In this document: piece after piece, positions 1 through 19,327 of the stretch
Layout: every line of letters starts with the position of its first letter
How positions within the stretch are numbered: position 1 is the first letter of the stretch
NCBI GenBank assembly: GCA_937873255.1
Contig: CALMVM010000592.1
Coordinates: 1 to 19,327 of the forward strand
Reading direction: 5' to 3'
From: an uncultured Verrucomicrobiota bacterium
Lineage (GTDB): Bacteria > Verrucomicrobiota > Verrucomicrobiia > Chthoniobacterales > SZAS-18
Length of the DNA: 19,327 bases
Notes under the pieces: generated by a model
Database searches by the model: none
Seen by the model: the letters and a program-made list of their open reading frames with translations, nothing else
What the model was told of the DNA's origin: nothing
Made by a program: the position numbers and the translations under genes

Positions 1-250
1 TGATGACCCCGTATTACATCGAGACCAACCGTGCCGCCCCATGCGCGCGCAGATGGACCGCTACGGCGGGATCGCGCGCGCGCTGGCGCAACGGCACGAC
101 GCCCTTTTCGTGGACTCCCAGGCGGCTTTCGACGCCGCGCTGGCGCATCTTCACCCGATGACGCTCGCCTAGGATCGCATCCATCCCGTCGCCGCCGGAC
201 ACATGATCCTCGCGCAGGCGTTTTTACGCGGAATCGGATTCGCTTGGACC
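1..250 (+). pseudogene. C-terminal part of an SGNH/GDSL-family hydrolase, frameshifted and with an in-frame stop
   Basis: The fragment enters from the left edge. Codons from position 3 read MTPYYIETNRAAP, then the frame changes within the C run at 37-40. From 41 the next frame reads MRAQMDRYGGIARALAQRHD, followed by FVDSQAAFDAALAHL. After LHPMTLA there is a TAG at 170-172, and the same frame goes on as DRIHPVAAGHMILAQAFLR. The block D-R-I-H-P with GH shortly after is the C-terminal catalytic Asp-x-x-His block of SGNH/GDSL esterases, where family members usually read L-A-W-D-x-x-H-P. The TAG therefore sits where TGG (Trp) is expected. Such enzymes typically deacetylate or de-esterify carbohydrates. 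Two lesions within 140 bp make the gene broken as written, either by real decay or by sequence error. Recognisable similarity ends near 247 (GIGFAW); after that the reading frame carries no family features. Confidence 0.72.
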
Positions 251-290
251 CACGACGGTGGCCTTGGGCAAAATTTTTCGCATTGCCGGG

Positions 291-318
291 TTGAACTCCG
301 GCGACGATTGCCTACAAT
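291..318 (+). promoter_or_regulatory. Candidate sigma70-type promoter for the OmpP1/FadL-like gene
   Basis: TTGAAC at 291-296 and TACAAT at 313-318 are separated by 16 bp. They match the -35 and -10 consensus at 4/6 and 5/6 positions. Transcription would start near 325 and leave a leader of about 110 nt before the ATG at 435. The stretch between the hydrolase remnant (about 247) and 435 holds no other feature I can support. No clear Shine-Dalgarno precedes 435. This is a pattern match only. Confidence 0.4.
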
Positions 319-434
319 CGGGACCTTCAGCGGACAATTCGCCCCCCTTTGTCCGTGCCGGCCGCGCAAGCGTTTCCGGGACGGCCAATCCTGCGAATCA
401 CCTTAACCACCCGCTGCAAAACCATCCCCTGACC

Positions 435-1952
435 ATGCCCTCCTCCCTCCTCCCACGTCTCCACCTGCGTGCCTGCGGAGCCACGCTCGCGGCCGGCGCG
501 CTCCTCGCCTCCGGCGGCGTTCGTTCGGCCCGCGCTGGTTCGTTCTCCCTGAGCGACCAGAGCCCCAGCGCCGTCGGTCTTTCCTTCGCGGGTTCCGCCG
601 CGATGGCCGAAGACCCCAGCGGCATTTTCTTCAACCCCGCCTCGATGGGCTTCCTGCCCGGCTTCCAGACGGAGAGCAGCTACACCTACGTCTCCCCACG
701 GGCCGACTTCCGCAACGAAGGGTCGCGCTACAGCTTCGCCGGGGCGAACAGCCCGGCCATCACCGGCAACAACGGCGGCGGCGGGGCGCGGGGCGCGAGC
801 TTCGGGGACACGTTCCTCTCGGCCACCGTGCTCAACAGCGAAAAGTACGGCAAGTTCAACCTGGGCATCGCCATCACCGTGCCTTTCGGCGAGGTCGTGG
901 ACTACGATCCGGGCTGGGTCGGTCGCTATAACTCGCTGCGCTCGCAGTTGCGCACCATCGACTACGGGGCGTCGGCCTCGTACCGCTGGAAGTTCATCAG
1001 CATCGGCGGCGGCTTCGACGCCATGTACTCCAGCGCCGTGCTCTCCAACGCCATCGACTTCGGTCTGGCCGGCTTCGCGCGGCGCATCCCCGGTTTCGCG
1101 CCCGGCTCGGCGGACGGCACCGTACGCCTGGAAGGCTCCGATGTCAGCTACGGCTTCAACGCCGGCGCGATCATCGAGTACCTCCAGCCCGGCCAGATCC
1201 CCGGCCTCGGCGTGGGCCGTTTCGGCTTCTCCTACCGCTCGGGCATCACGCTGGATTACACCGGCAACCTGAACTTCCGCAACGTGCCCGCCGTCTTCCA
1301 GAGCGCGGCGTTCGGCGGTGCGTTCCAAGCCCAGACGGCCAGCGCCAAGCTCAAGCTGCCCGAGACGTACCACTTCTCCTTCATCCAGAACATCGCCGGC
1401 AAGGTCAACCTGCTCGGCGACCTGACGTACACGAAGTGGGACCGGCTCGACCAGATCCCGATCACGCCGTCGAATCCCGTCAGCCAGACCGCGCTGATCA
1501 GCGACCCGAGCCTGAAAAACCCCGGCATCGCCACGCGCTACCATGACGCCGTGCGCATCACCGGCGGCATCGAATACATGCCCATCAAGGACCTGACGCT
1601 GCGCGTGGGCGGTGGCTGGGACGAGTCGCCCGTGCCCAACCAGTACGTGCGTTCCTCGCGCATTCCCGACGGCGACCGCTGGCTGGTGTCCGCGGGCATC
1701 AAGTACCATGTGTTCGGCTTCCGCAACCCGATCTTCAAGAGCATCTACGTGGATACCGACGTGGAAGCGTCCTATCTGCACCTGTTCCTGAACGATCCGC
1801 GCATCACCAGCACGGACACCTCCGGACATTTCCTCAGCGGCCGGTACGACGCGCAGGTCAATGTCGCCAGCGCGGCGTTGATCTTCCGTTACGGTTCGGC
1901 GGACGCCCCCCGCCGGGAACCGAAGGACAGCAAGGACACGTACCACAAATAA
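435..1952 (+). CDS. OmpP1/FadL/TodX-family outer-membrane transport protein
   Basis: 505-residue outer-membrane beta-barrel of the FadL/OmpP1 family, which moves hydrophobic compounds (fatty acids, aromatics) across the outer membrane. The start at 435 gives a signal peptide (basic start, then ATLAAGALLASGGV, cleavage probably after ARA). The open frame extends back to 258, but that extension has no signal character. The mature N-terminus SFSLSDQSPSAVGLSFAGSA, followed by AEDPSGIFFNPASM, is the FadL hatch/N-terminal signature (alternate residues, Gly-rich, D-x-S-x-x-x-x-N-P-A). The rest is alternating polar/apolar beta-strand sequence with aromatic girdles, including FGFSYRSG, and the last strand ends ASAALIFRYG before a short charged tail. 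It is slightly longer than E. coli FadL (about 446 residues). It appears monocistronic, with a promoter candidate upstream and a strong terminator downstream. The transported substrate cannot be read from the sequence. Confidence 0.9.
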   Translation: MPSSLLPRLHLRACGATLAAGALLASGGVRSARAGSFSLSDQSPSAVGLSFAGSAAMAEDPSGIFFNPASMGFLPGFQTESSYTYVSPRADFRNEGSRYSFAGANSPAITGNNGGGGARGASFGDTFLSATVLNSEKYGKFNLGIAITVPFGEVVDYDPGWVGRYNSLRSQLRTIDYGASASYRWKFISIGGGFDAMYSSAVLSNAIDFGLAGFARRIPGFAPGSADGTVRLEGSDVSYGFNAGAIIEYLQPGQIPGLGVGRFGFSYRSGITLDYTGNLNFRNVPAVFQSAAFGGAFQAQTASAKLKLPETYHFSFIQNIAGKVNLLGDLTYTKWDRLDQIPITPSNPVSQTALISDPSLKNPGIATRYHDAVRITGGIEYMPIKDLTLRVGGGWDESPVPNQYVRSSRIPDGDRWLVSAGIKYHVFGFRNPIFKSIYVDTDVEASYLHLFLNDPRITSTDTSGHFLSGRYDAQVNVASAALIFRYGSADAPRREPKDSKDTYHK

Positions 1953-2145: not shown

Positions 2146-2190
2146 ACAAAGCATCCGCCGCCGTCTTGTGCTCTAATATCGAAACGACCC

Positions 2191-2952
2191 ATGAGCCAAT
2201 CCACCGAACCCCTGACGGTGTTGCTCGCGCTCTCGCACGAACTCGGCGCGGAGGCTCGCGCACTGGCGATCCTCGGCGAGGGGAACACTTCCGTCTGGCT
2301 GGACGACGAGACGTTCCTCGTCAAGGCGAGCGGCAGCAGCCTCGGCACGCTCGCGCCCACCGACGTGGTCGAATGCCGCGCGGCCCCGTTACGCGCGATG
2401 CTGGACGGCGGCGGCCTCGACGACGCGCGGATCGAGGAAATCTTATTTGGCTGCCGCGTGGACCCGGCAGCCAGGAAACCCTCGGTGGAAGCGGTGTTCC
2501 ACGCCGACCTGCTCTCGCTGCCGGGCGTGCGGTTCGTCGGGCACGCGCACCCGGTCAGCGTCAACGCCGTGTTGTGTTCGCCGCGCGCGCGGGAGTTCGC
2601 GCAGGGGCGGTTGTTTCCCGACGAGATCGTGTGTTGCGGGCAGAGTTCGGTGCTCGTGCCGTACGTCGATCCGGGGTTGCGGCTGGCGCGGGCGATCCGC
2701 GACGGCGTGGCGGAGTTCCGCGAAAGCGTGGGCACGCTGCCGCGCGTGATCCTGCTGGCGAACCACGGCGTCATCACGCTGAGAACGTCGCCGCAGGCGG
2801 TGCTGGCGGCGATGCTGATGGTGGACAAGGCGGCGCGGATTTTTGCCGGAGCGGCGGCCTTGGGCGGGCCGACGTTCCTCACCGACGCCGATGTCCACCG
2901 CATCGCCAACCGTCTCGACGAACACCACCGCCAGCGCGCGTTGAATCTCTGA
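2191..2952 (+). CDS. Class II aldolase/adducin-family protein
   Basis: 253-residue cytoplasmic zinc-dependent aldolase of the FucA/RhaD/adducin fold. These enzymes cleave sugar 1-phosphates such as fuculose- or rhamnulose-1-phosphate to dihydroxyacetone phosphate and an aldehyde. Visible signatures are the phosphate-loop region GEGNTSVW (residues 30-36) and KASGSSLG (45-52), the catalytic-type Glu100 in PSVE, the metal pair His118-x-His120 in GHAHP, and the third metal His192 in ANHGV. The length suits the family (210-270). The ATG at 2191 is preferred because upstream in-frame codons run through the palindromic repeat. No strong ribosome site is visible. A neighbouring regulator gene follows after 34 bp, so co-transcription is likely. 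All metal ligands are present, so it should be active, but the true substrate is not determined. Confidence 0.88.
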   Translation: MSQSTEPLTVLLALSHELGAEARALAILGEGNTSVWLDDETFLVKASGSSLGTLAPTDVVECRAAPLRAMLDGGGLDDARIEEILFGCRVDPAARKPSVEAVFHADLLSLPGVRFVGHAHPVSVNAVLCSPRAREFAQGRLFPDEIVCCGQSSVLVPYVDPGLRLARAIRDGVAEFRESVGTLPRVILLANHGVITLRTSPQAVLAAMLMVDKAARIFAGAAALGGPTFLTDADVHRIANRLDEHHRQRALNL

Positions 2953-2953
2953 T

Positions 2954-2986: not shown

Positions 2987-3346
2987 ATGACTCCCACCGT
3001 GCAGATGCGTATTCGCGTTTACCTCGGCGACGAACCGGCGCTCGGTCCGGGCCGGGCCGAACTGCTGGCGCGCATCGGCGAGACGGCGTCCATCGCGCAG
3101 GCATCCCGGGACATGGGCATGTCTTACATGAAGGCATGGAAGCTCATCCAGAGCCTCAACGGTTGTTTCAAGACCCCCGTCGTGGAGGTAAGGCGCGGCG
3201 GCCGGGCGGGTGGCGAGGCGCGTTTGACGCCACTTGGCGCGCAGGCGCTCGCGCTCTATCAACGCATGGAAGCCGCCAGCCGCGCGGCGGTGAAGGCGGC
3301 GGAAAAGGAGATGGCGGGGCTTTTCCGAATGACGAATGACGAATGA
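2987..3346 (+). CDS. ModE-type winged helix-turn-helix protein, N-terminal domain only
   Basis: 119-residue DNA-binding protein. The sequence GPGRAELLARIGETASIAQA, followed by SRDMGMSYMKAWKLIQSLNG, matches the LysR-like winged helix of the molybdate regulator ModE. The wing (VVEVRRGGRAGGEARLTPLG) and the dimer helix (ALYQRMEAASRAAV) follow. ModE proper has about 260 residues with two TOBE molybdate-binding domains. These are absent, as in many short ModE-like or LysR-substrate-free proteins, so molybdate sensing here is doubtful. The final residues (R-M-T-N-D-E) and the stop are encoded by the AATGACG heptamer repeat, so the natural C-terminus has been replaced or extended by repeat DNA. The start could also be ATG 3005. 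It may regulate the adjacent aldolase gene; this is inferred from position only. Confidence 0.85.
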   Translation: MTPTVQMRIRVYLGDEPALGPGRAELLARIGETASIAQASRDMGMSYMKAWKLIQSLNGCFKTPVVEVRRGGRAGGEARLTPLGAQALALYQRMEAASRAAVKAAEKEMAGLFRMTNDE

Positions 3347-3458: not shown

Positions 3459-4568
3459 ATGAAACCCAAATCCCTCCCCCTTCTGCCGCTGCTCGTCGGC
3501 GCGGCGTTCGTCCCGCTCCGCGCGCAGGACGCCACTCCCAAAGGCAAGCCGATCACCGAGGTCGCGCACTTCGACAAATTCCAGATCACGGGCGTCGCCG
3601 TTTCCAAGACCGGGCGCATCTTCGCCAATTTCCCCCACATGGGGGGTGACTACCAGTACGCCGTCGTCGAGGTCATGCCCGATGGCACCACCAAGCCCTA
3701 TCCCGACGAATCGTGGAATTCCTACAAGGACACGGACAAGGACAAGGGCACCAAGGACCGGTGGGTCTGCGTGCAGAGTGTCATCGTTGATGACCGCGAC
3801 CACTTGTGGGTGCTCGATCCGGGCAACATCGACATGAAGGGCGTTATCTCCGGCGCGCCCAAGCTCGTGCAGATCGACCTCGCCACGAACATGGTCTTGC
3901 AAAACATCCCCTTCCCCTCCGACGTGGCCCCGAGCAAGAGCTATTACAACGACGTGCGCATCGACGAGAAGCGCGACTTCGCCTACATCACCGAGAGCGG
4001 CGTCGGCGGCATCGTGGTCGTCAACCTCAAGACCGGCAACACCCGCCGACTGCTCGTCGAGGACGAATCCACCCTCGCCAACAAGAAGGTGGACCTGACC
4101 ATCAACGGCAAGGAAGTGCTCGACGAGAAAGGCAAGAAGCCCAACTTCAACGCCGACGGCATCGCGCTCTCGCCCGACGGTGAAACCCTCTACTACCAGT
4201 CGGTCCTCAGCGACACGCTCTACCAGGTCCCGACCGCCAAGCTGCGCGACGAGAGCCTGAGCAAGAACGACCTGCACAACGCGGTCGCATCGGCCGGGCA
4301 AACGTTCCCGGTGGACGGCCTGCGGATGGACAAGTCAGGCAACCTGTACCTGAGCGACCTGCGTGGCGGCACGATCAAAAAGCGCACGCCGGACGGCAAG
4401 ATCGAGTTGGTGTGCAGCGACCCGCGCATCCAGTGGCCGGATTCGTTTGCGATAGGGCCGGACGGGGCGCTGTATTTCACCTGCTCGCACGTCCATCAGC
4501 AGCCGAAGTACAACGGCGGCAAGAACGCGCGCACCGAGCCCTACGCGATCTTCAAGGTGATGCCTTGA
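3459..4568 (+). CDS. Secreted major royal jelly/Yellow-family beta-propeller protein
   Basis: 369-residue protein with a signal peptide (MKPKSLPLLPLLVGAAFVPL, cleaved around RAQ-DA), so exported. The body resembles the MRJP/Yellow family (PF03022), a six-bladed beta-propeller. Recognisable blocks are GVAVSKTGRIFANFPHMG, the VQSVIVDDRDHLWVLDPGN blade, YNDVRIDEKRDFAYITESG, the NADGIALSPDGETLYYQS blade, and VDGLRMDKSGNLYLSDLRGG near the end. The length is typical. In bacteria the reaction is unproven for most members; insect relatives include dopachrome-conversion enzymes and ligand-binding proteins. The start is fixed by AGGAG at 3451-3455 just upstream of ATG 3459 and by the signal peptide. 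The frame is clean throughout. It is the last intact gene before the decayed region. Confidence 0.88.
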   Translation: MKPKSLPLLPLLVGAAFVPLRAQDATPKGKPITEVAHFDKFQITGVAVSKTGRIFANFPHMGGDYQYAVVEVMPDGTTKPYPDESWNSYKDTDKDKGTKDRWVCVQSVIVDDRDHLWVLDPGNIDMKGVISGAPKLVQIDLATNMVLQNIPFPSDVAPSKSYYNDVRIDEKRDFAYITESGVGGIVVVNLKTGNTRRLLVEDESTLANKKVDLTINGKEVLDEKGKKPNFNADGIALSPDGETLYYQSVLSDTLYQVPTAKLRDESLSKNDLHNAVASAGQTFPVDGLRMDKSGNLYLSDLRGGTIKKRTPDGKIELVCSDPRIQWPDSFAIGPDGALYFTCSHVHQQPKYNGGKNARTEPYAIFKVMP

Positions 4569-4657: not shown

Positions 4658-4681
4658 CAGCTGATCTTTCCCCGATAAAGT

Positions 4682-4803
4682 GGTTCTCCCGCACTTTGTG
4701 TGGAAGTGGGCCAACCTCCCGTCAATACGGAACAATCCCAGAGGGACAAACCTGTGCGGCAAGGCTGCCGTGCCGATCCATCCACACAAAGTGCGGGAGA
4801 ACC
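4682..4803. repeat. 23-bp perfect inverted repeat with 76-bp centre (MITE-like)
   Basis: The left arm 4682-4704 and right arm 4781-4803 are exact reverse complements (begins GGTTCTCCCGCACTTTG). The centre contains no open frame of note and one smaller hairpin, CGGCA/TGCCG, near 4757-4771. Together with the REP-like element this makes 4569-4868 a non-coding, repeat-built spacer. Nothing else is recognisable in 4804-4868. The element ends about 65 bp before the first codons of a truncated surface-protein gene, so its arrival or recombination may have removed that gene's 5' part. Confidence 0.7.
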
Positions 4804-4868
4804 GCAAAACCGGGGCAAGATCACTACCGTCTAATCTTCACAGTTGCTGTTAGGCGACGGGAACAGAC

Positions 4869-5650
4869 GTGCCATGGAATGCTCAAAACGGGATGTCGTC
4901 TGGATCGCCGGTAAAGTCGGACCAAGCGCACCGTGGACGTGGCCAACGGCTCCGCCGTCGTGGACGCCCGCCTGAGCGGCGTCATCAGCAACATCACGCT
5001 CAACGGCAACAACGCGAACAACCCGATCCTCAACACGATGGGCGGGCTGAATAAGAACGGCCTCGGCACGCTGGAACTGACCGCCAACAACACGTACAAC
5101 GGTCCGACCAGCGTCAACGCCGGCACGCTCCTGATCAACAACGCGCAGGTGGCAGGCGTCGGCTCGGGCACCGGCACCTCGACGTTGGCAGTCAACAACG
5201 GCGGCACGCTCGGCGGCATCGGGTTCATCGCCGGGGCCACAACCGTCGCTGCGGGCGGGACGATCACCGGGGCGAACGTGGGCAGCGTCGGCGCGTTGAC
5301 GCTGGCGAATACCCTGACCATCAACGGCACCTACCTGGCGGATGTCCTCAGCGGCACGGGCAGCGATCTGCTCAAGCTGACGGGCACCGGCGCGGCTGGC
5401 GTCCTGACGCTCGGCGCGGGCAGCACCCTGACCGTTACAGGCACGGTCGATGGCACGAGCCCATACGTGTTGGCCACCTATGCCTCCGAAACCGGGACTT
5501 TCACCAACACGACGCTGCCGAGCGGCTACACCCTCCAATACAACACGTTCGAACTCGACCTCGTGCCCACGGCGGTCCCCGAACCGGCGACCTGCCTCGG
5601 CGGCGGCCTGGAGCCAGCGCAAGCGCTTCGGCGCGCGGCGGTCGGCTTGA
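4869..5650 (+). pseudogene. PEP-CTERM autotransporter-type beta-strand repeat protein, truncated at both ends
   Basis: The frame from 4933 reads VANGSAVVDARLSGVISNIT, then NKNGLGTLELTANNTYNGPT and SVNAGTLLINNAQVAGVGSG. The G-L-G-T-L-x-L-x-x-N-N-T-Y-N-G motif is the autotransporter-associated beta-strand repeat (PATR, PF12951). The C-terminus holds VPEPATC (5575-5595), the exosortase recognition motif. Normally VPEPAT is followed by a membrane helix of about 20 residues and an Arg cluster. Here only LGGG intervenes before a frame change near 5605-5612, after which the other frame gives WSQRKRFGARRSA and a TGA at 5648-5650. The anchor helix is thus deleted. The start is also lost: frame 1 is closed by a TAA at 4912, and residues 4869-4930 continue upstream in another frame. 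There is no signal peptide. The intact ancestor would be a secreted, exosortase-sorted surface protein. Confidence 0.75.
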
Positions 5651-5673
5651 TCCCGCCTGGTCGTTGCCTTGAA

Positions 5674-5758: not shown

Positions 5759-7545
5759 ATGCGTCCTCCGATCTCGCTCGAAGTCCCCGGCACCTTCGGT
5801 CTCGATTGCAATTATTGGGCGTCGCACGCCGGGACGATGATGTGGTCGGATTGGCAGCCCGAAGTCATCGAAGGCGATTTTCGGAAACTCGCCGCGCAGG
5901 GCATCGAATGGCTGCGGGTGTTTCCCCTGTGGCCCAATTTTCAGCCTATCACTTTGCTGCGCGCGCAACACGGCGCGCCGGTCGAAATGCGCCTCGGCGA
6001 GGCGCCCCCGCCGCCGGACGAGGCCGGGCGGGCGGGTGTCTCGTCGGAGATGCTCGGCCGCTTCGAGGTTCTGTGCGCCTTGGCTGAAAAACACGGCCTG
6101 AAACTCATCGTCGGCCTCGTCACCGGCTGGATGAGCGGCCGGCTGTTCACCCCGCCCGCGCTCGCCGCGCTCGATCCCCTCACCGATCCCACCAGCATCG
6201 CGTGGCAGATCAGGATGGTGCGCACGTTGGTCACCCGGCTCCGCACGCAGCGCGCCATCGCCGCCTGGGACCTGGGCAACGAATGCAATTGCATGGGCAA
6301 CGCCGGAGCCGGGACGGCGCCTATCTCTGGACCGCCGCCATCACCAATGCCATCCGCGCGGCGGACCCGTCGCGGCCGGTGGTCTCGGGGATGCACTCGC
6401 TTTGCACCCCGCATCGCAGCGCCGGTCCCTTCCCGGAATGGACCATCGACGATCAGGGCGAACTGACCGACCTACTCACGACCCACCCGTATCCGTATTG
6501 GACCCGCCACACCCGCAGCGACGCCGTCAACACGCTGCGCACGACGCTGCACGCCACCGCCGAAACCCGCTTCTACGCCGACATCGGTGGATTTCGCGCG
6601 CGCGAATTTGTACTCCCTGTAGGCCAACGATTGCCGGGCGTTCCTGTGGTGGTGCGCGCACGATCAGACCGAACTCGTCTCCGCGCCCTACGATTGGAAC
6701 GGGGTGGAACCGAGTTGGGCCTGTTGCGCAACGACGGCAGCGCCAAGCCCGTGCTGCGCGAGATGGCGGCTTCCCGCGCGTTCCTCGACGGCCTGCCTCT
6801 CCGGGCGCTGCCGCCCCGGCGCACGGACGGCGTGTGTCTGCTCACGCGTGACCAGGACGACTGGGCGGCGGCGTTCGGCGCGTTCGTCTTGGGCAAGCAG
6901 GCCGGGCTCGAAATGGAGTTCCGCCACATCATGCAGCCGATCCCCGACGCCGGGCTTTACCTGTTGCCGAGCATCGCGGGGCCGAGTTGCGTCCCGCGTC
7001 GGCGGTGGCTGGAGTTGCTGACCCGGGTGCGGGCTGGTGCGACGCTTTACGTTTCGCTGGGCGACGGCATCGTGCCGCACTTCAACGAGGTCGCCGGGGT
7101 GGAACTCGTCAGCCGCGCCAAGCCGCCGCAGCCCTTGGCAACGGTGCTCGACGGTGTGGATGATTCGCCTCTGCCCATGGACGGCGCGGACGACCTGCGG
7201 TTCGTGCCGCGTGGAGCGGAGGTGCTCGGCGTCCGACCCGACACCAGGTCGCCGGTGTTCTGGCGGCATCGGCTCGGCGCGGGCTGGGTCGTCGTGTTCG
7301 CGTCACCATTGGAAGTGGGCGTGACGTTGCGGCCCGGTGCGTTCGACGCCGCGCCGCCGTACTGGCGCGTTTACGACGAGGTCCGCAAGACGGGCTCGGT
7401 CCCACGCGCGCTCATCTTGGATTGTCCAGCGGTCGCTATGACCGAGCACCGAACGGCGGACGGGCGCACGGTGGTAGTCATAATCAATCACACCGCCGTC
7501 GAGCAAAAGCTGGTCCCGAAGTTGGGAAGGGGTTTCGCGCTCGGC
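5759..7545 (+). pseudogene. Clan GH-A glycoside hydrolase (GH5-like) with beta-galactosidase-type C-terminal domains, broken
   Basis: The start at 5759 reads M-R-P-P-I-S then FGLDCNYWASHAGTMMWSDW, with EWLRVFPLWPNFQP and KLIVGLVTGWMSG further on. This is a (beta/alpha)8 barrel beginning. AAWDLGNECNC carries the Asn-Glu pair of clan GH-A, where the Glu is the acid/base. A 1-nt shift near 6303-6312 moves to SRDGAYLWTAAITNAIRAAD. FYADIGG then joins abruptly to DFARANLYSL in another frame (about 6585-6605). The block that normally carries the second catalytic Glu (the nucleophile) is not found, so it appears deleted. TAG at 6620-6622 replaces an expected Trp before ANDCRAFLWWCAHDQTEL. Another 1-nt loss near 6705 restores ELGLLRNDGSAKPVLREM. 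The rest resembles the amidotransferase-like trimerisation domain of family GH42/GH35-like enzymes and a small C-terminal beta domain. No signal peptide is visible. As written it cannot be active. Confidence 0.72.
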
Positions 7546-7800
7546 GAAACTGGATGCGGTGCGACGATTTCGCCACGCGTTCCACGGTGCTTTTCGATTG
7601 CGTTGCGGTGTACCTCGCGTACGCGGAGGATCTTGTGGAGACGGAAACCGTGCGTTTCGATATCACCGACGACGGCTTCACCGTGCGCGACGATGCGGCA
7701 GGCGAGTTCCGCGCGCGTGGCGATCCGCTGGAAAAACCTCGCCGCCTTCCACGATCATCTGACCGACCGGCTGCTCACGCCGTTACCACGAAAAGCCTGA
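7546..7800 (+). pseudogene. Unrecognised C-terminal coding fragment, frameshifted
   Basis: After GRGFALGETG the hydrolase frame ends in low-quality sequence. The next frame gives plausible protein, CDDFATRSTVLFDCVAVYLA, with VRFDITDDGFTVRDDAAGEF further on. A second shift at the A5 run 7731-7735 then leads to NLAAFHDHLTDRLLTPLPRK and a TGA at 7798-7800. Removing one A gives a smooth reading (P-L-E-N-L-A-A-F). I do not recognise the family. It may be the true tail of the preceding hydrolase or the end of a different gene joined by deletion. The next start codon is only 26 bp downstream, which favours a natural gene end here. Confidence 0.4.
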
Positions 7801-7826: not shown

Positions 7827-8291
7827 ATGACTTCGCCCCTGCGCATCGGCATCGCCGGACTCAACGGCTACGGCTCGACTTATTTCAAGACTCTCGCCGC
7901 GCAAACCGACGCCGTCATCACGGCCGTTTGCGACACGAATCCGCAGGCGCTCGATGAGGCCGCCGGCCGCCACGGGGTTGCGCACCGCTTCGGGGATTGG
8001 GACGCGTTGCTCGCCGCCGGGGGGACGGACGCCGTGTGCGTCGTCACTTCGCATTTTTTGCATCACCCGATGGTGCTCACGGCGTTGCGCGCGGGGCAGC
8101 ACGTTTTTTGTGAAAAACCGCTGGCGATCACGGCGGCCCACGCCGATGGACTCGCCGCCATCGCCGACGGGGTCGCGCCGGTGATCTGCCTGAACCCGTC
8201 GCACGGTGCAAAGCCGCCGGGTTGGGAGCCATGGGAAATCGCTTGCCGTGACCTGGCTTTCCTGCGGCGTGAGATCAGGGAGATTCGCTGA
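7827..8291 (+). pseudogene. Gfo/Idh/MocA-family oxidoreductase, NAD-binding half only
   Basis: 154 residues beginning RIGIAGLNGYGSTYFKTLAA, a Rossmann G-x-x-G-x-x-G dinucleotide-binding turn. AVITAVCDTNPQALDEAA follows at strand 2, and the diagnostic GQHVFCEKPLAITAAHADGL carries the catalytic Lys of the E-K-P motif. Family members have 330-400 residues, with a C-terminal alpha/beta substrate domain. Here the similarity stops at about ADGVAPVICL (near 8190). The remaining 33 residues are not family-like, and the ORF ends 45 bp before the second palindromic repeat. Enzymes of this family oxidise or reduce sugars and inositols using NAD(P). The truncated product lacks the substrate domain and is expected to be non-functional. 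The ATG follows the preceding gene by 26 bp, so they were probably one transcription unit. Confidence 0.78.
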
Positions 8292-8470: not shown

Positions 8471-8905
8471 CTAAACTAACACCCACACCAACCCATCATT
8501 TATCTCCACCTCGAACGACTCCAGATCATCCTGCGCGGCGGTGGCCGGCGACACCTCCACCGGGTACGCGCGCAGCCTGGTTTTTGCGTCCACGAGATGC
8601 TCGCCGTTGAGCAAATCGAACTCCCACCCATGCCAGGGACAGCGCAGGATTTCACCTTCGCGGGCGAGCACGTATTCGCCGACGGGCGACGCGGCCGTCG
8701 TCCCACTGATCCGCCCTTCGCAAATCGGCGCGCCGGCGTGCGGACAAATATTACGGTACGCCACGAAGCGACCGCCGACGTTGAACACGCCGATCTGCAT
8801 CCCCTTGCCGGAATTCGGGATCGTCACGATCTTGCGCGCGCCCGGCGGAAGCTCGGCGAGCGTGGCGACCTCGTGCCGCGTTTTGGCCTTCCCGGGCTCG
8901 CTCAC
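8471..8905 (-). CDS. Rieske [2Fe-2S] ferredoxin-like protein
   Basis: 144 residues, a free-standing Rieske domain. The cluster ligands are all present: Cys54-Pro-His56 in ICPHAGAPIC and Cys89-Pro-Trp-His92 in RCPWHGWEFDL, the latter continuing to the usual L-x-N-G turn. The spacing between the two ligand pairs is 32 residues, longer than the usual 15-17 and typical of NirD/dioxygenase-ferredoxin variants with an insert. No signal peptide or catalytic oxygenase domain is seen, so it is probably a soluble electron carrier. The start is GTG at 8905. Its G-T-G-A overlaps the TGA of the upstream amidohydrolase-type ORF by 4 nt, implying translational coupling and a shared function. Rieske proteins next to amidohydrolases of this type occur in many environmental bacteria, possibly for aromatic or decarboxylation chemistry; this is inference. 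Confidence 0.88.
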   Translation of the reverse strand: MSEPGKAKTRHEVATLAELPPGARKIVTIPNSGKGMQIGVFNVGGRFVAYRNICPHAGAPICEGRISGTTAASPVGEYVLAREGEILRCPWHGWEFDLLNGEHLVDAKTRLRAYPVEVSPATAAQDDLESFEVEINDGLVWVLV

Positions 8906-9922: not shown

Positions 9923-11357
9923 TTAATGCGGCGTGCCTGCGTCCGGGAGGGGGAACGATTTCGGCGGCGGCGTGGACCGCCCCCAATCCGTCGGCGTCTG
10001 GCTCATCACGAACGACAGCTTGGCCGTCCCCTTGAGTTCGGCATGACGCAGCCAGGACCGCGTGAGCGGCTGGCCGTTGAGGGTGGCCGAGGCGATGTAG
10101 TTCCCCGCGCCGGAGCGGACGATCTCCAGGAGGCCGTCCTCGGGTCTTTGCACGGCGGCGTGCGCCACGAGCGGTCCGTTGAGATAATAAAGGTCCTGCC
10201 CCGCGTTCGGGAACAGGCCCAGTTGCACCCAGATGCAATACGACGACATCGCGCCGCTGTCGTCGTCGCCCGGATAGCCCTTGAGCGTGTACCGGGTGCC
10301 CGTGATCTTGCGCGCCCAGTCGGCGCTCAGATCGGGCCGGCCGGCGTAATGGAAAAGCTGCGCGGCCAGGAAGGCGGGCTCGTTGCCGAAGTCGATCAGG
10401 CCCTTGTTCATGCCATATTCCAGGCGTCGCACGAACGTCTCGCGCCCACCCATCAACTCAACGAGGCGGTCGATCTGGTGGGGAGCGAAAAATGAATACC
10501 CCCACGAACTCGCCTCGTAGAAATCGCCCTTCCACGAACCGCCGTACGCCTTGGGGTCCAGCGGCGTCCACTCGCGCGCCTGCGTCCTGGGCATGACGAA
10601 TCCCTTGAAGCCCTCGCTCTCCTGGTTGGCGTTCCAAAGGACTTCCCACTTCTGCGAACGCGCCAGATACGTTTCCGCGTCCCTGGTCAGACCGAGGCCG
10701 GCGGCCACCTGCGCGGCGCAAAAATCGTTGTACGCGTATTCGAGCGTGTAGGAGGCCGACATCGTGATCGCGGGAACCCATCCCTGGGTACGGTAGCTGT
10801 TCTCCACCGGATTGTTCGCGCTGTGGCCGCCCAGGCAGGAACGGCGCTGATCGGCGTTGAACTTCATGACCGCGTACGCCGCTGGCCAATCCACCCCGCC
10901 CAGCTTCTTGACGTAAGCGTCGGCGACGATGTTGTCGATGTCGTTGCCGCCTTGTTCGCGCAGGTTGTTGTGGCCGGCGATGAACGTGTCCGGCACGATT
11001 TTGTCCATGCGCTGGCGTTCGATGAAGGACTGGATCGTGCCGCGCACCATCGCCGGGCGGAGGAATTCCATCAGCGGGAACAACGTCCGCCAGGTGTCCC
11101 AGATCGCGTAATGATCGTCCCACATGGGAGCCGTCGGCGCGTACTGCGCGTACTCGCCGGTGCGGTCGCGGGGCATCGTGAACGCATGGTAGAGTGCGGT
11201 GTGTCGGACCGATGGCGCAGCTTCCATCGCCGAGAACGCCGATGCGCGGATCGCCGTAGCGTGTCAGATCGTTCGCGGGAGCGGATGATTGCGCGTGGAC
11301 GCCGCCGAGGAGAGCGACGCTGGCGAGCGAGGCCAACGCGAGGGGAAATCGTTTCAT
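9923..11357 (-). pseudogene. GH92 alpha-mannosidase A, N-terminal domain largely deleted
   Basis: ATG 11357 starts a signal peptide (MKRFPLALASLASVALLGGV) followed by LTRYGDPRIGVLGDGS, the first strand block of GH92 proteins. Near 11205-11225 the frame changes and the sequence jumps to SVRHTALYHAFTMPRDRTGE, which lies some 250-280 residues later in intact family members. From there the catalytic (alpha/alpha)6 domain is complete to TAA 9923: WDDHYAIWDTWRTLFPLMEF, FYEASSWGYSFFAPHQ (general-acid Glu region), GYPGDDDSGAMSSYCIWVQL (catalytic Asp region), LFPNAGQDLYYLNGP. GH92 enzymes are calcium-dependent exo-alpha-mannosidases needing the N-terminal beta-sandwich to complete the active site, so the product as read is inactive. 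The start ATG overlaps the stop of GH92 B by 4 nt (ATGA, 11354-11357), showing an operon. Confidence 0.85.
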
Positions 11358-13013
11358 GGGGTGCGGGGTGCGGTGGACAGGGAAGGCGGCGGGTTTTGCG
11401 AGCCCCAGCGGGTGGGCTCGGGGCCAAGATCGAAAACGATCTCCGCGCCGTCGATGAGGTCGGCGTGCCGCAGCCACGATTGGTTCCAGGGCTTGCCGTT
11501 GAGGCTGGCGGAGGAAACATATTTGTTCGCGTCGTTGCTGGCGGGAGCCTTGATGATGATTTTCTGGCCGTTGCCCAGCCTGATCGTGGCTTTCGTGAAG
11601 ACCGGGCTGCCGAGGTAATAGTATTCCTGCCCCGCGTTTGGGTAAATGCCGAGCATGTCCCAAACGAGCCAGCCGGAGGTCGTGCCGCTGTCGTCGTTGC
11701 CGGGCAAACCCCTGGCGGTGGCATTGAAATTTTCCAGCGTTTTGCGGGCGAAATACTCAGTCCGGTCGGCACGGCCCGCGTGGATGAAAAGATAGGTTTC
11801 CAACATGCAGGGTTCGTTGAGCGCCTGATAATATTTGTCGCAGGCCACCGTCAGCTTATCGACGAACGCCGCGTTGCCGCCCAGCAGGTCGATCAACCCC
11901 TGCGGATCGTGCGGGACGTACCAGCTCCACGTCCACGCGTGGCCCTCGTAATACTGCGGGCCGGTCTCGCTGTGCAGCGGGTCGAAGGGAACGTGCCACG
12001 AGCCGTCCGCCCGTCTGCCGCGCATGAAGCCGCCGTCCTTGTCCCACAAACCGGCGTACCAACGCAGGCGGCTCTCCAGGTCGGCCACGTCCGCCGCCGA
12101 GCCAAATTTCCGGGCCAGGGTCAGCACGCAGAAGTCGTCGTAGACGTATTCGAGCGTGCGCGAGACGGCCTGGATATCCTGACGCATGACGACGTTGTCA
12201 GGCACGACGATGTCCGTCGGCACGAAGTGGAACTTGCGGTAATCGTCCAATCGGAAACGTCCCTTCGAGGGTCGCGAGTTCGTCCTGGGATCGTTGTCCA
12301 CGAAGGCGTTTTGCGGATGGCCTGATAAGCTTTCCTCCAATCGACGCCGGACAGGTTCTTGACGTAGGCATCGGCGATGATGACATCGGCGTTGGAGCCG
12401 TTTTGCACGTGCTCGTACTGGTGCGCACTGTGCGCATCGCCCATCCAGCCGTCCACCTCGTGAAAGTTGGGGAGGCTATCGACGATGCCGGTCTGCACTT
12501 GGAGCTCGATCAGCGTGAAGAGTGGGTTCACCGTGCGGAAGGTGTCCCACAGGCAAAGCAGGCTTTCGTAGTACGTCCGGCCGCCGTAGCGTTCGGGCGA
12601 TTCGCCGGTCCAGTCGTTAGGCGTGATGTGCGTGTGGTAGAGCGCGGTGTAGAACATCCGGCGCTGTTCGGCGGTGCCACCCTCTACCCGGATTTTGTCG
12701 AGCACGGTTTCCCATGCCCGCCGGGCATTGACCCGCACGGCGGCGAAATCCCAGCCGGGCAGTTCGGCGTCGAGGTGGGCGCGCGCCTGTTCGACGCCGC
12801 GCCAGGAAACGGCGATTTTGCACTGGACGACCTGTCCTCTCGTCGTGCGGAAGTTCAGGTATGCGCCGATCTGGCTGCCGGTGTTTTGCGCCGTGTTGTC
12901 GGCAACGCGCCGCCGTCGGTCCACGTGCCGTAGGAGTCGAACCCGGTGTCGAACCGGGCAGCGAAATAAACGATCCAGGGCTCGTGCGTGGACCGCCCTC
13001 CCTTGTAGACCAT
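11354..13013 (-). pseudogene. GH92 alpha-mannosidase B, missing its N-terminus and frameshifted
   Basis: The remnant begins around 13013 with MVYKGGRSTHEPWIVYFAAR and FDSYGTWTDGGAL, the second half of the N-terminal beta-sandwich. A shift near 12899-12906 leads to DNTAQNTGSQIGAYLNFRTT, then the linker MFYTALYHTHITPNDWTGE and LLCLWDTFRTVNPLFTLIEL. At the A4 run 12309-12312 one base is missing between AIRK and NAFVDNDPRTN. The rest is clean: YYEGHAWTWSWYVPHDPQGL with the probable general-acid Glu, GLPGNDDSGTTSGWLVWDML with the catalytic Asp pair, and GIYPNAGQEYYYLGSP. About 550 residues remain out of 700-750; the signal peptide and first 150-200 residues are lost where the upstream beta-helix gene is joined to it. 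It releases alpha-linked mannose in intact relatives. It overlaps GH92 A by ATGA. Confidence 0.85.
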
Positions 13014-16000
13014 GAACCCGGACGGTGTAGGTCAACTCGGCACGGGCACGCAGGAAGGTCAGCGCGAGCCGACCTTGCGCGTCCCGGGCGGCGATGGGTT
13101 CGCCGTCGGGCGCGGCGGCGGTCGGGTTGGTGTCCAGCGCGTATTCGAGCAGGTTGCTCCGGCCGTCGTGGTCCGGGTCGGCGAGGATACGTACCGGTGG
13201 AGGATTGCAACGGGCTGGCGTTGGTCGTGGTCGGGATGATGTTCGACGAGCCGACCCAACCGGCGACCCAGCCGTCGCCCGCCCCGCCGGGATATTGCTG
13301 CGGGGAGGTCGAGCCCGCGCCGTCGGTGAAGCGCGCCCGCACGATCCCGCTTGGCGCGGCGGGTGCCGTGACCGGCAGGACGCGGGCGTCCGTCCAATAA
13401 TTCGTCCTGCCGGAGGAAACGTTCGGGAACGTGCCGCCCGCCGGAGCGTAGACGCCGTTGCCGCCGACGACCGTGCTCAGCGGCGGCGCGCTGATCGCCG
13501 TGTTCAACCCGCCCGCCGTCGCCTGGCAGGCCGCGCCGGAGGACACGGCGTACGACATCGTGTAGACGGCGCTTTCGTCGATGTTGACCGGCGTTGGCAG
13601 CACGGCTTCCACCCAACCCGCCGTGGTCCCGGCGCTCGCCGTCGCGGACGCCAGCAGGTTGCCGTCGGCGTCCCAGAGATTAAGCGTGTAACTCGACGGC
13701 CCGCCGACCGGGTGGTACACGCGCAGCGAGGTCACCTGACCGTAGCGGCTGCTCGTGAAACGCGTGCCGAGTTCGTAGCTCACGCCGGCCGCCATGACCT
13801 CGTACAACTCGAAGTCGTCGAAGGGGACCGCGCCCGTCGAGCCGGACGAGAACCACGCGCCGAACCGTCCCACGCCGGTCACGCCCGCGCCGGCGGGAAA
13901 AGCGAACGACCGCGACACCTGCTGCCACGCCGCAGCCGCGCCCGTGAAGGGCAACGTGGTTTCCGTGCCGTCGTCGAGCGCCAGGCTCCCCCAGGTGTTC
14001 GTCGTGGACAGGGTCTTCAAAGCCCAGGCGCTGTAGAGGTAAGACGACCCGCGCGTGAGCGTGACGTTCTGGAAGAACCCGGCGCTCTGCGCGGTGGGAC
14101 GACCGCTCAACAGGCCCATGTGGACCGTCTGGCCATCGACGGTCGTCTTGTTGGTGGTGGCGTCCCAGCCGGTCACGCCGTTTTCGAATCCGGGGTTGAC
14201 CAGCAAGTTGGACACGTTGGAAGGAATTGCGAACGTGCTTCCGCCGGTGGGCGCACCCTTCCCAAACAAGGGTTGGCCGGCGGCGACCGGCGCGCCGTTG
14301 ATCGTGTAGACGCCGGAGATCTCGGCGCTGTTGACGTAGCCGGTCGCCGTCGTGATGGCGCGCAGGGTGGCGGTCGTGTCGATGAGCACCGTGCCGCCGC
14401 TGGACACCGAGGCGCTGGTCGTGGTCGGCGCGGTGTTGTTGGTCGTGTAACGGATGACGGCCCCCGGCGTCGTGCTCGTCAGCGTGACCGTCTGCGCGCT
14501 GGAATACGTGCCGGCCGCCGGCGAGAACGTCGGCGCGACGGCGAGGGTGGAGGAGTGCACGGTGACGACCACGTCGTCGGTCACGGCGGGCCACATCGTG
14601 AACAGCGTGTCCTGCCCCGTCAGCCGCAGGGTGAACGTGCCAGGGGCGGAAAACGTCGCCGTGGTCGATAACGCCGACGCGCTGCCGAACGTCACCGTAC
14701 CCGGGCCGCTGACGAGGCTCCACATTGTCGTGAGCGTGCCGCTGCCCAACGTCGTCGCGCCGTACGTCGCCGTGCCGGTGAGCGTCGCCGCGCTGCCGTA
14801 GGCGACGGTCCGATCCGCGCCGGCGTTGACGACCGGCGCGTAGTCCGTCGTGGCGAAGATTGAATGGAGGTACGCCGGGTTGATCGCCGCCGGGTGGTGG
14901 TCGTGGACGGCCAGGTCGAGGAGAACGTCGAGATCGCCTCGCGCAACGTGCCGCCGGTGGACGTGTAGGCGATGCCCGCCGCCGCATTGTCCGATCAGAT
15001 CGCCAGCCAGTAGTACGTCCCGCTGGTGAGCGCCTGCGCGCTGGTCAGGGTGAAACTCTGCCAACCCGCCGTGGGGTTTGTGACGACGGCGGACCCTTTC
15101 AGGAACGCGCCGGGCACCGCGCCGCTGTCCGCGTAGATCGCGCAACGGTAGTTGCCGGAGGTGGCAGCGACCTTCGCCATGATGCGGGTGGCGGTCAGAT
15201 CGCCGCTGGCCAGGAAGCGCGAGAAGCGGATTTTGTTGCCGCCGAAAACGTCCGTGCCGGTCCCCATCGCCAGGCTGCCGACATCGCCACGGACCACGTA
15301 GCTGCCCGAGAGCACGCCGCTGGTCGCGCGGCCGGAGTTCGGCTTGAAAGCCACCGCCTGGAGGAGCGCGGACGTGGTCACCGTGACGGGTTTGTCAAAG
15401 GCCCAGGTGCCGTTCGTCGCGCTCGGCGTCGTGCCGTCGGTCGTGTAGCGGATGTAGGCCCCCGGGGTCCGGGTCAGGAGGTTGACCTTGACCGTATCGC
15501 TGTAGGTGCCGGGGGCGATGAGAAAGGTCGGCGTGGGCACGGCTGCGGGCGTCGCAGTGTTAAACGTATAATTGGCCGTCGAGACGTAGCTGGTGGTCAG
15601 TCCCGATTTCCAGGTGATCGCCTTGACGGTCGTCGCCGTGCCGACCGGGATCGCCGCCGTGTAGACCGTGCCGTTCGTGGCGTTGCTGCTCTGGATGAGC
15701 ATCTTGTACCCGGTGGTGCTGAGGTCCACGTCGATGCCGTCGCCGAGCGAGATGCCCGAGCCGGCGTAGAGTTCCCACCAGCAGTTGTAGCGGATGACGT
15801 TGTTCTCGACGGCCATGCGGTCCATCTGGCCGCCGCCGACGCCCACGCCGGCGTTGTATTTGACGACGTTGTCGGCGATGCGGATGTCGTGCGACTTGTA
15901 GGTGGAGTAGCGACAGTCCACGGAGATGCCGTTGCAATTGCTCCGTCCGTCCGCCAACCCGATGTAGGGTGCGTAGGCCGGGGCGAGGGTGCGGTCGCCG

Positions 16001-16514
16001 TTGGCGTCGAGACTGGAATAACCCCGGATCGTCAGGCCCCGGATCTCGATGTAGGAGGGGACATCCGCGCCCGTGTAGACAGCCCGCCCGTCCGCGTGCC
16101 GGCGGCGTTGTAGGATTCCATCCGCACCATCACGGGATGCGAGGTGGAGGCCGACAGAGAGAAACTCAGCGTCAACAGTCCGAGGTTCGTCGAGGCGTTG
16201 GTCGTCAACAAGCTGAGGATTCCGCTGTCCACGCCGGCCGTCCAGGCCCCGGTGGTGGCGCTGCTGTTGACAAGTAGCTGGATGCCGTTGGAGGTCACGG
16301 CGCTCTGGTAGGTGTCCGCCGTGCCGACGTTGGTCACCGTCGGCGTGGCCGTGACGCCCCCGCCCGCCGGCGAACCATAGCCGGCCATCGCCGTCCAGGT
16401 GTTGCCCGACTCGAAATTGTATTTGAGCAGCGTCGCGCTACGCGCCACGCCGCAAGTCAACAGGATGCCCGACAGAAAAAGCGCGAGGCGCAGGAGATGG
16501 CGGGTGGTTTTCAT
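13014..16514 (-). pseudogene. Large secreted beta-helix protein with chitobiase-C, PKD, carbohydrate-binding and DUF4082-like domains, multiply broken
   Basis: ATG 16514 starts a signal peptide (LLRLALFLSGILLTCGVARS) and a LamG-like N-terminal domain up to RMESYNAAGTRTGGLST. Near 16080-16095 the frame changes into a right-handed beta-helix (YIEIRGLTIRGYSSLDANGD, then VVKYNAGVGVGGGQMDRMAV). Two chitobiase-C/FN3-like domains follow (PGAYIRYTTDGTTPSATNG). Next is a domain ending ALTSGTYYWLAI, where TGA at 14995-14997 replaces an expected Trp before SDNAAAGIAYTSTGGTLR. After a join near 14940 come DHHPAAINPAYLHSIFATTD, a PKD-like domain (VVNAGADRTVAYGSAATLTG), a third chitobiase-C-like domain, a CBM4/9-like domain (LLVNPGFENGVTGWD) and a DUF4082-like domain (GTRFTSSRYGQVTSLRVYHP). 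A shift near 13200 gives ILADPDHDGRSNLLEYALDT and LALTFLRARAELTYTVRVHG, a usual C-terminus. Its end runs into GH92 B. It probably binds or cleaves polysaccharide outside the cell. It may be two genes joined at 14940. It starts 22 bp after the GH38 gene. Confidence 0.75.
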
Positions 16515-16536
16515 AAACGTGGGACAGGCTGCAGAC

Positions 16537-19205
16537 TCACGGCGCGGCAAATTTCAAACCGAAGGTTTCCATGCGTTGCGCGCCGACCGTTGTTTCGAAC
16601 GCGCCGCCGGTGAACGACAGCGTTTCGACGGGGGTCAGGCGTTGGGCACCCGCGAGAGGGGCGGCGGTGGTGAAATGCACCGGGCGCGCGGCGTCGGCCT
16701 GGTTCCAGACGCGCGCAACGAGCCCGTGCTCGGGGCCGTCGTCGTGGATTTTCAACGCCCACAGCAGCACGTCTGGGTCGCTGACGCCGAGCAGCGAGAA
16801 ACCCGTTTCCGGGTAGGGGCCGCCGCCCTTGCTGATGACGGGGGCGGCGACGAGCGGATTCTGGTGTTCCAGCGCAAATCGCATCGCGGCCGTCTGGTTG
16901 TACGCTCCGTGCGCTTGCAGGGCGAAACGCTGGAGAAAATGCCGCTGGCCGTTTTGCGCCGGGATGCCCAGCGACGAACCGTCTACCTGCCCGCCAGCGA
17001 GCATCTGGAGTTGCGGCGTGGCGGTGTCGAGCGCGCCGGGCGTGCTCGCGCCGAGTTTGCCGAAGGCCAGGTCGGGACTGGAAAGGGTCACGCCTTTCGC
17101 GCCTGACCCATCGGTGAGTTCGGCGAAATGGTTGACCGTCAGGTAGTCGCAACGCGCGTTGCGGTCGGCGTAGTCGCCGCTGGCGGCGTGCGGCTTGTCG
17201 AGAAGCACCGCGCCGACTTCTTCCGTGTGCGTTGCCGGTTGATCCATGGCAAAGCTGAACGCCCAGTGGCGCACGTCGGCGAAGTTCGCGTCGATCTCGT
17301 TGACGATGTCCACGCGGTCAGATCCCCGGTAGAGCGTGATCGCGGTGGTGTGGTCGAGCCCGGCGTCGCTGCGCGCGCGAATCGTCACGGAAACGGGGCC
17401 GCGATTTTCCACGCGGAGTGGTTCACCGTCGTCGGAACGGGCGGCGAGGTCGTTGAGCTTGAGGTCGCCAATCGTGGCGGCGAGTTCGGTGTTGCCGTGG
17501 CGCTTGTCGACCAACGAGCGGATCGCGCCGTCGCGCTCGACGACGACCCGCACGGCGTCGTTTTCGAGCACATTGTCACCATTCACCGTCGCCGCCGGAT
17601 CGGTCGGCGCGCTGCCCGGGCCGGGCAGGAGTTCAAAGACCTTGTAACCGGCTGACGGCACGTCGCCCGCGAGGATGCGCAACGATCTCACGCCGCCGGT
17701 CTTGACGATCTGATGCGGCACGTCCTGGCCCGTCGTCAGGTTGCGCACGTGGATGTCGCCGCCGCCGTTGTAATTCGTGAAATCGGCGGGACCCGTGCGC
17801 GTCCAGCCGAGCGGATTGAGCACGAAGAAACGGTTCGCCTTTTCCGGGCGCGGGATCATCCCGCCGAGCCGGACCGCGACCTCGCCGTGGATTGACTCGA
17901 CGTAGAACTCGATCTCCGCCGCGAGCCGTTCCTGCCACGCCGCGCGTTGGGCGCGCGAGATCGCGCCGTCGGCCGTCCAGTCGTGTTCCCAATACAACCC
18001 GAGGTCGGTGAAGGCCACGTCGCGCGCCGCCGCGTGGCGCGTCATGAAATCCGGGAAATGCCGGCTCACCAGCGCGGCGAGGAGTTCGGCCGCGCGGAGT
18101 TTTTCGACGGCGCGCTTGATCCGCGCGGACGTTTCGGCCATCGACGCGGAATACAGGTCCCACTCGTTGCCGTACGTCACGGCCTCGCCGCCCAGCGAGC
18201 GCCATGCGTCTTGTTAAAATCCGCGATGAAATCCTCCTCGTTCGGGACGATGACCTGCCTCTGCGCGTTGCTCTCCCGTTGCGCGACGACGTGGAAATGG
18301 TCGCAATACGGCGACGACACGACCTTCTGCAATCCAGGCACGGCGGGGATCGTCGGCGGCGGCGGCACGCCGGTCTTGCGCGCGAGATCGTCGCCGCCGA
18401 ACCCGAAGATGCCGACGACGCTGTACGGTTGTTTCGTCACCGGGTCCGCGTAACGCTTGAGGAAACCCTCGTCCGTGTCAGCGTAACGGATCGCTCCCGC
18501 CGGCGAGCCGGCCTCCCAATACCCGCCGAACGCGCCGGCCTGCGAATACCACTTCAAGAGGAGCCGCCGCCCGTCCTTGCCCGTCCACCAGTAAATCTCG
18601 TGGTCGCGCGCGCCGAGCGTGTGGTGGTCGAGCTTCGTCGCGCAGCCGCACACCCCGCGCCAACTGTACCGCGCGCCCGTCCCGGCGAATAACGAGGCCG
18701 GCCCGAGCGGCAGGGTCTGGTTTTCCATCGCGGCGACGAGCGGGAAGCGCACGTCGTAACGCCGCTCCAATCGGCCCGCGTAATACAGTCCGCGCAACAC
18801 CGCCTCGGCCGGTTGCGCGCCGTAGCAGGACACGAGCGTGTTGAGCGGCGCGCTGATCGTCCCGTCCTTGACCCGCCCCATCAGCCGCGCGAACTCCGCC
18901 GCCGATTTCCGGCGCTCGTACATCCACAGCCAGAAGCTGCCGTCGCAGTTGAAACGGTTGCGATAAGGGGCCGGGTTCGCCGCCGTCTCGTCCGCGAGCC
19001 GGAGGTGGAAATCGAGCAGGTCCACGAACACCCGCGCGTACGTTTCCTCGTCCGCCGCCCACAGGTAATCGGTGTGGTCGTCGTTGGCGAGGTAGATCCG
19101 CTTGCGGGGCGCGGGCTCCGGCGCGACGGCGGCTTGCTGCGCGCCGGCCGGGACCGCGTGAAGCAGCGACAGGCATCCGGCCAGGACCAGGAAACGCGCG
19201 GTCAT
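16537..19205 (-). pseudogene. GH38-type alpha-mannosidase, atypical, with one frameshift
   Basis: ATG 19205 begins a signal peptide (FLVLAGCLSLLHAVPAGAQQ), so exported. Residues 37-50 read IYLANDDHTDYLWA. His44-x-Asp46 followed by Trp corresponds to the zinc-binding H-x-D-x-x-W of GH38. Further barrel signatures are RNRFNCDGSFWLWMYERRKS and GARYSWRGVCGCATKLDHHT. Near 18196-18206 the frame changes from KTHGA to SLGGEAVTYGNEWDLYSASM, a single-base lesion. The second half contains the GH38 C-terminal domain: ENDAVRVVVERDGAIRSLVD, followed by KRHGNTELAATIGDLKLNDL, and beta-sandwich sequence to TGA 16537. Total about 889 residues. The usual Asp-x-Phe-Gly nucleophile motif is not obvious; MENQTLPLGPASLF lies in that region. 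It therefore belongs to a divergent GH38 group whose specificity is uncertain. Apart from the one shift the gene looks complete and could be functional if the shift is a sequencing error. Confidence 0.82.
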
Positions 19206-19255
19206 GTGCGGCGGGGGGGGATCAAATCTGCACCCGGCCTGACCGGGCAACGGCA

Positions 19256-19327
19256 CTATTGTTCAAAGGCCCTGCGGTCTCGGCCCTTGCCGGCCGGGCG
19301 GGGGACGCCGAGTACATCCTTGGGTTG
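19256..19327 (-). CDS. Partial: last 23 codons of a right-handed beta-helix-type protein
   Basis: The frame is open from the right edge: QPKDVLGVPRPAGKGRDRRA then F-E-Q and TAG (19256-19258). The pattern D-V-x-G-x-P-R-P-x-G-x-x-x-D-x-G-A-F-E (here R-A-F-E) is the common C-terminus of secreted beta-helix/DUF1565-type proteins. The stop lies 50 bp before the GH38 start, consistent with one operon. That gap contains a small CCCGG/CCGGG hairpin (about 19233-19247) without a T tract. Confidence 0.55.
   Translation of the reverse strand, partial: QPKDVLGVPRPAGKGRDRRAFEQ

Follow-up and report, generated by a model that had tools for sequence, protein, structure and literature searches.

The window analyzed here is the whole of contig C592 (CALMVM010000592.1; 19,327 bases) of a metagenome-binned Verrucomicrobiota draft genome (G000; 5.02 Mb, 642 contigs, 90% complete, 3.7% estimated contamination). 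It holds an accessory glycan-degradation locus that is probably in decay, and its broken genes are best read as genuine, fairly recent pseudogenes whose lesions would be present in the cell as well as in the assembly. The assembled sequence contains clustered lesions in genes that have intact relatives, and in two of the enzymes invariant residues have changed more often than expected. The damage followed the identity of the genes and not their position, which loss of coverage is not expected to produce. Comparisons were made with G001 and G002, sister species of the same genus as G000.

The first-pass annotation had listed about nineteen frame breaks, stops and domain-skipping joins. All 20 listed sites were examined, and the lesions were largely real as sequence. 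Alignment to intact relatives resolved 10 of the 20 as sites at which reading frames are interrupted: five single-base frame breaks (near 6307, 6705, 12310, 12902 and 18200), one in-frame stop, one loss of approximately 22 codons, and three large truncations or joins. Support for the others came from a family profile only (two sites, 9255 and 14995), from a coding-frame model only (two sites, 13200 and 16090), or from reading frames by eye only (six sites, 37, 170, 4930, 5608, 7733 and 14940). One truncation was additional to that list: a Gfo/Idh gene that keeps its N-terminal domain only, to approximately 8190. The whole sequence of the window was read and contained no N letters, no fixed-length N gap was found at its breaks, and ARAGORN found no tRNA genes in it.

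The damage was concentrated in the glycan-degradation genes, as the first-pass annotation had stated, with GH5, GH92 and GH38 enzymes all broken. The GH5-like glycoside hydrolase (5759..7572, forward strand) was aligned to eight full-length relatives. Its frames shift by single bases near 6307 and 6705, and approximately 22 codons are absent near 6590 (listed as site 6595). At 6620 it has an in-frame TAG; all relatives that have a residue in this column (at least 50 of the 60 used) have tryptophan. The C-terminus is lost near 7550, where homology stops 7–39 residues early in the eight relatives. No second GH5 copy was found in G000 and no GH5 match in G001 or G002; no near-identical intact copy was present among the best 120 of 977 matches, the best relative being 60% identical, its own frame aside. 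A 505-residue frame (6283–7797) that crosses sites 6307 to 7733 is on record in the protein collection from two contigs, possibly one assembly deposited twice.

Both GH92 mannosidases are on the reverse strand. The first (9926..11358; PF07971, profile 47–463, E = 2e-100), aligned by tblastn with relative P0125, keeps approximately 50 N-terminal residues and then skips approximately 270 (to about residue 324), with a frame change near 11215; of six relatives only P0125 matched the N-terminal piece, and weakly. Large skips of this kind are not single-base errors. The second GH92 gene (11361..13022) matched P0121 (72% identical) in three pieces (query 200–239, 239–437 and 437–750). Both of its internal breaks, near 12902–12905 and 12310–12312, are single-base, because the query coordinates are contiguous against P0121 and other relatives. 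Residues 1–199 (relative to P0121) are missing, and at approximately 13010 the frame runs into the tail of a DUF4082 protein. In the sister genomes this gene had only relatives of 33–40% identity, two of which, in G001, are in unbroken frames of 893 and 824 residues. The GH38-type alpha-mannosidase (16540..19205, reverse strand), aligned to its relatives, is full length except for one single-base break near 18198, and had no match in G001 or G002. These families are shared with Verrucomicrobia-type bacteria, one GH5 relative being named Chthoniobacteraceae, a family near which G000 may belong; the best relatives are 60–74% identical and full length, whereas the copies in the window are truncated or frame-broken.

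PF07971 found GH92 genes of G000 on contigs C589 (one open frame of 810 residues), C98 and C592. The C98 gene (L195, 400–2700) contains a TAG, a TAA and one frame change; therefore, broken mannosidases also occur outside C592. A GH38-like frame (named by eye) with an in-frame stop was seen separately at L054 near 6793.

Changes at conserved positions were counted by comparing each read-through enzyme with the columns invariant in all other relatives used, every relative being scored alike. The relatives were a selection, made on length and rank, from 120 listed per family: 60 for GH5, 70 for GH92 and 90 for GH38. GH38 had changed at 7 of 148 strictly invariant columns, more than any of its 90 relatives, and GH5 at 3 of 94, more than any of its 60 relatives. 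When the three enzymes (GH5, GH38 and the second GH92) were pooled, 10 of 291 columns had changed, against approximately 2.0 expected from similarly isolated relatives (P = 4e-5). All 11 events, including the stop at 6620, were single-base, and eight were transitions (29% expected without bias, P = 0.003). We tentatively interpret the substitution excess and the transition bias, which are not uniform over the enzymes, as mutations that arose recently in the absence of selection, a pattern that indel error does not produce. No close relative of the joined frames was found at the DNA level. A family-wide GH92 test (106 of 120 relatives) of the first GH92, C98 and C589 genes was rejected as evidence, these genes belonging to distant subfamilies (33–41% identity to the nearest member): the open-frame C589 gene scored 7/38, about as badly as the broken copies (11/49 and 4/33). 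The count of 9/44 for the first GH92 gene was dropped on the same ground of a distant subfamily.

Five genes of the window were clean, as the first-pass annotation had noted. Four of them form a block on the forward strand (435–4568): an outer-membrane transport protein of the FadL/TodX type, or porin (435..1952; PF03349, E = 6.9e-53), with relatives in G001 and G002; a gene named aldolase-like in the first-pass annotation (2190..2950), an open frame with a relative in G002 and no Pfam or NCBIfam match; a ModE-type regulator (2987..3346; TIGR00637, E = 5.4e-24, below its cut-off), with relatives in G001 and G002; and a royal-jelly-type (MRJP) protein (3459..4568; PF03022, E = 5.5e-29), with open-frame copies, 65% identical, in G001 and G002. 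The fifth is a Rieske protein on the reverse strand (8474..8905; PF00355, E = 2.5e-12), with a 54% identical match in G002 and none in G001. The clean block is flanked by the broken left-edge gene and the broken region, and the Rieske gene lies inside the broken region. All five clean genes were thus matched in G001, G002 or both, and the damage spares genes conserved in sister species. Protein searches of the sister genomes strengthened this split between core and accessory genes: the Rieske protein was matched in G002, GH5 and GH38 were unmatched, and GH92 was matched only distantly. DNA comparison (40 candidates scored per genome, here and below) found to the right of 4569 only repeats, a passenger-gene stretch at 5160–5275 (in G002), and tail motifs near 13130–13180. 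Queries from G001 and G002 showed no breaks in 1.1 and 3.2 kb of the window, respectively, all in clean genes. Residues unique to G000 relative to the two sisters were not in excess in the porin (65 versus 66 and 58) or in the ModE-type gene (11 versus 9 and 16).

Frame-break density was estimated with a codon-phase model trained on long frames of G000 and G001 contigs other than the window. Decoding covered the window, 71 of 80 fetched G000 contigs (the other nine, all N, were dropped), 39 of 40 G001 stretches (one dropped for N), and 20 G002 contigs. The choice of G000 contigs was not random: C1–C20, evenly numbered ones, neighbors of C592, C460, C220, C340 and C250, and C392. The window contained seven same-strand frame switches without explanation in 17,486 coding bases (4.0 per 10 kb), a count that is approximate, one of the seven (5655) being a gene boundary and one real break (18196) having been classed as a boundary. 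The other G000 contigs contained 42 in 498,698 bases (0.84 per 10 kb), and the sister genomes 8 in 503 kb (G001; 0.16 per 10 kb) and 6 in 152 kb (G002; 0.40 per 10 kb). Seventeen of the 42 G000 switches were within 60 bases of an N-run, which leaves 25 that are gap-free; relative to these 25, the excess in the window was significant (Poisson, P = 3.7e-5). By eye, a number of these 25 resemble true gene boundaries, in which case the contrast would be larger than stated.

The N-runs themselves were mostly of one length: 49 of 56 in the 71 G000 contigs were exactly 10 N, which we take to be the SPAdes default. One such gap lies in a gene recognized by eye as ftsZ (L101 near 16468). A gap of this kind tells nothing of the DNA of the cell, because G001 has approximately 81 bases there, with flanks 80–85% identical. 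Across genes shared with G001 (36 genes and 38.2 kb in the fetched G000 contigs), the ftsZ gap was the sole break and no gap-free break was found. Control pairs gave similar values (G000 queries in G001, 0 in 35.3 kb; G002 in G001, 0 in 26.9 kb; G001 in G002, 1 in 26.9 kb). Between G000 and G002, two apparent breaks were obtained in each direction (G002 queries in G000, 6.0 kb; G000 queries in G002, 6.2 kb); all of them trace to a single repeat-like gene pair whose pieces align non-collinearly, and they were left uncounted. Few orthologues were recovered when G001 stretches served as DNA queries. Apart from these comparisons, a BioF-like aminotransferase (named by eye) with a frame change was seen at L045 near 6897.

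Two simple sources of error fared poorly against these data. The first-pass annotation had attributed the lesions to uncorrected indel errors, placing many of them in short homopolymers. The placement was weakly borne out: one of the five resolved single-base breaks (12310) is in a run of four and the by-eye sites 37 and 7733 are in runs of four and five, but the other four resolved breaks were not placed in runs of at least four (a run of four G lies approximately 5 bases from the 6705 break). Uniform uncorrected homopolymer error of the sequencing platform is, moreover, a highly improbable explanation of the window. The genes shared with G001 were unbroken except for one N gap; therefore, a genome-wide indel error rate cannot explain the window, although a bad contig could. 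The stops, the 22-codon loss and the domain skips are lesions of another type, the invariant-residue excess is not predicted by such error, and short contigs with fixed 10-N gaps would be untypical of long-read data. An origin of the contig in another, badly sequenced organism is compatible with the estimated contamination of 3.7%, but we regard it as so improbable as to be negligible: a 163-bp repeat of the window recurs on ten further contigs of the bin (93–98% identity) and was absent from the matches listed for either sister (40 candidates scored per genome), and among 57 genomes the closest MRJP genes are those of the same genus. Contamination was accordingly rejected on the repeat common to the window and the rest of the bin.

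Assembly artefact is the more serious competitor, and we consider it unlikely but a possibility to be reckoned with. On this account coverage of C592 is thin, and a short-read assembler bridged gaps through short chance overlaps without N and kept uncorrected read errors, the genes being intact in the cell; such an artefact may apply above all to the large joins. The same genome does carry scaffolding artefacts, among them the gene-breaking 10-N gaps of a scaffolder, one in ftsZ, and 17 of its 42 switches lie near N-runs. The lesions of the window, in contrast, carry no N, although joins lacking N remain compatible with the artefact. They also spare the clean genes, the damage halting at clean-gene edges, and neither the clean genes of C592 nor the 36 genes shared with G001 had a gap-free break. 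The substitution excess and the transition bias are likewise unlike an indel artefact.

Several observations nonetheless weigh against decay, some of them in favor of the artefact. In the second GH92 gene, none of the 49 strictly invariant columns and none of the 103 nearly invariant ones had changed, so that it looks like a gene under selection that was misread. At 90% conserved columns, GH5 was average (5/194, with 29 of 60 relatives lower) and GH38 no more than high (18/383, with 80 of 90 relatives lower). The expectation for the pooled count was derived from 23, 8 and 41 relatives; three changes, as in the enzyme of the window, were also seen in one of the 23 used for GH5. Residues unique to G000 in the MRJP protein numbered 63, against 28 and 25 in G001 and G002, which may just reflect closer kinship of G001 and G002 to each other there. 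Over the 71 contigs, and with N-gap breaks counted, switch density was higher at higher GC (Spearman 0.31, P = 0.009), the trend that coverage loss would give. Boundary-classed switches were denser in G000 than in G001 (2.33 versus 1.07 per 10 kb); therefore, breaks elsewhere in G000 may be undercounted. Approximately nine joins or truncations in 14 kb, partly seen by eye or by model, are a great deal for decay. A concentration of breaks like that in the window, most of them gap-free, is seen on contig C460 (L049, 2000–6100 and 13009), largely in a short tandem propeller-like repeat gene (by eye) and extending to its neighbors; one of the frame changes is in a conserved-looking gene. Finally, contig C505 carries right at its edge (L093, 1–222) an orphan GH92 front, of which approximately 35 residues match well and which could be the missing front of a gene in the window. 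Neither an overlap with the ends of C589 nor an exact counterpart in the window was found, and its remainder was not found attached; by eye it looks like the C98 type and not the second-GH92 type, so that it decides nothing on a false join at 13010.

Decay of the locus, which we prefer on the evidence as a whole, would run as follows. The right-hand 14.7 kb (the Rieske gene excepted) and the left-edge gene would be fairly young pseudogenes, remains of a locus that comprised the GH5-like enzyme, GH38, two GH92 mannosidases and surface proteins, and whose function would have been lost in this lineage. Loss of use presumably came first and the lesions after, through the usual kinds of mutation (stops, indels of one base, and the deletion of stretches tens to hundreds of bases long), while selection would have kept the neighboring conserved genes intact. 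Assembly errors may be superimposed on this at some of the large joins, and the small lesions may still be real. Bacterial pseudogene clusters show the same mix of frame breaks, stops and deletions in one functional group beside intact conserved genes, and likewise excess change at invariant sites, here in two enzymes. Unlike such clusters, the window is known from the assembly of one metagenome bin alone, and one enzyme is without amino-acid decay.

The remaining broken genes were traced less closely. At the left edge (1..250, forward strand), the 3′ end of a gene that is SGNH-hydrolase-like by eye has a frame change near 37 and a TAG near 170, both read from the frames by eye; it had no Pfam match. 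An autotransporter-repeat protein remnant (4924..5655, forward strand; PF12951, E = 1.1e-9; TIGR02601, E = 2.3e-10), with a PEP-CTERM-like tail by eye, lacks its N-terminus near 4930 and changes frame near 5608 (by eye). A C-terminal gene remnant recognized from its frames (7557..7800, forward strand) has a frame change near 7733 (by eye) and no Pfam family above cut-off. The truncated Gfo/Idh/MocA oxidoreductase (7828..8290, forward strand) matched PF01408 over profile positions 1–110 of 120 (E = 1.2e-20), with no other family in the frame. On the reverse strand, an in-frame fusion near 9255 (8902..9561) joins a secreted-protein-like N-terminus (by eye) to the C-terminal half of an amidohydrolase (Amidohydro_2, PF04909, profile 178–289 of 289, E = 5e-9). 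Remnants of beta-helix-like, chitobiase-C-terminal-like and DUF4082 proteins (13016..16516, reverse strand; PF13313, E = 6.7e-28; PF13290; frame model) show frame changes near 13195 and 16080 (frame model) and 14940 (by eye), and an in-frame TGA at 14995–14997, where a choice-of-anchor R match that scores slightly below its cut-off ends at position 100 of 155.

The window also contains repeats. The 163-bp repeat (4661..4823, forward strand) is an imperfect palindrome with 43-base arms (fold z, −10.7) just before the truncated passenger gene. It was found on 12 other G000 contigs, the ten mentioned above and two with short exact pieces, and in neither G001 nor G002 among the matches listed; it is probably a small mobile element that spread recently. 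A second palindromic repeat of approximately 120 bases (2021–2149 and 8323–8467) occurs many times in G000 and in diverged form in G001, and one copy follows the truncated Gfo/Idh gene. A 50-base repeat (4603–4654) and a palindrome of GAATGAC-type units (3328–3416) were also seen, the former in all three genomes; the palindrome occurred at one other place among the G000 matches listed, on C133.

A scan of GTDB returned a distant Pararhizobium locus only, and nothing on this lineage was found in literature listings and the opening parts of abstracts. Either way, the explanation is ordinary biology or ordinary artefact, and the window serves as an example of how decay and error can be weighed in a metagenome bin without reads, from breaks in conserved genes, N-gaps and invariant-residue counts. 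If the damage is an artefact, gene counts from this bin need care. If the decay is true, the locus should be left out when working mannosidase loci of the species are counted. More tentatively, and we hold this to be doubtful, a whole capability for mannan or N-glycan degradation (GH5, GH38 and several GH92) may be in the course of being lost at once, at approximately 1% substitution, which would be the mark of a free-living bacterium that has recently shifted its diet or habitat.

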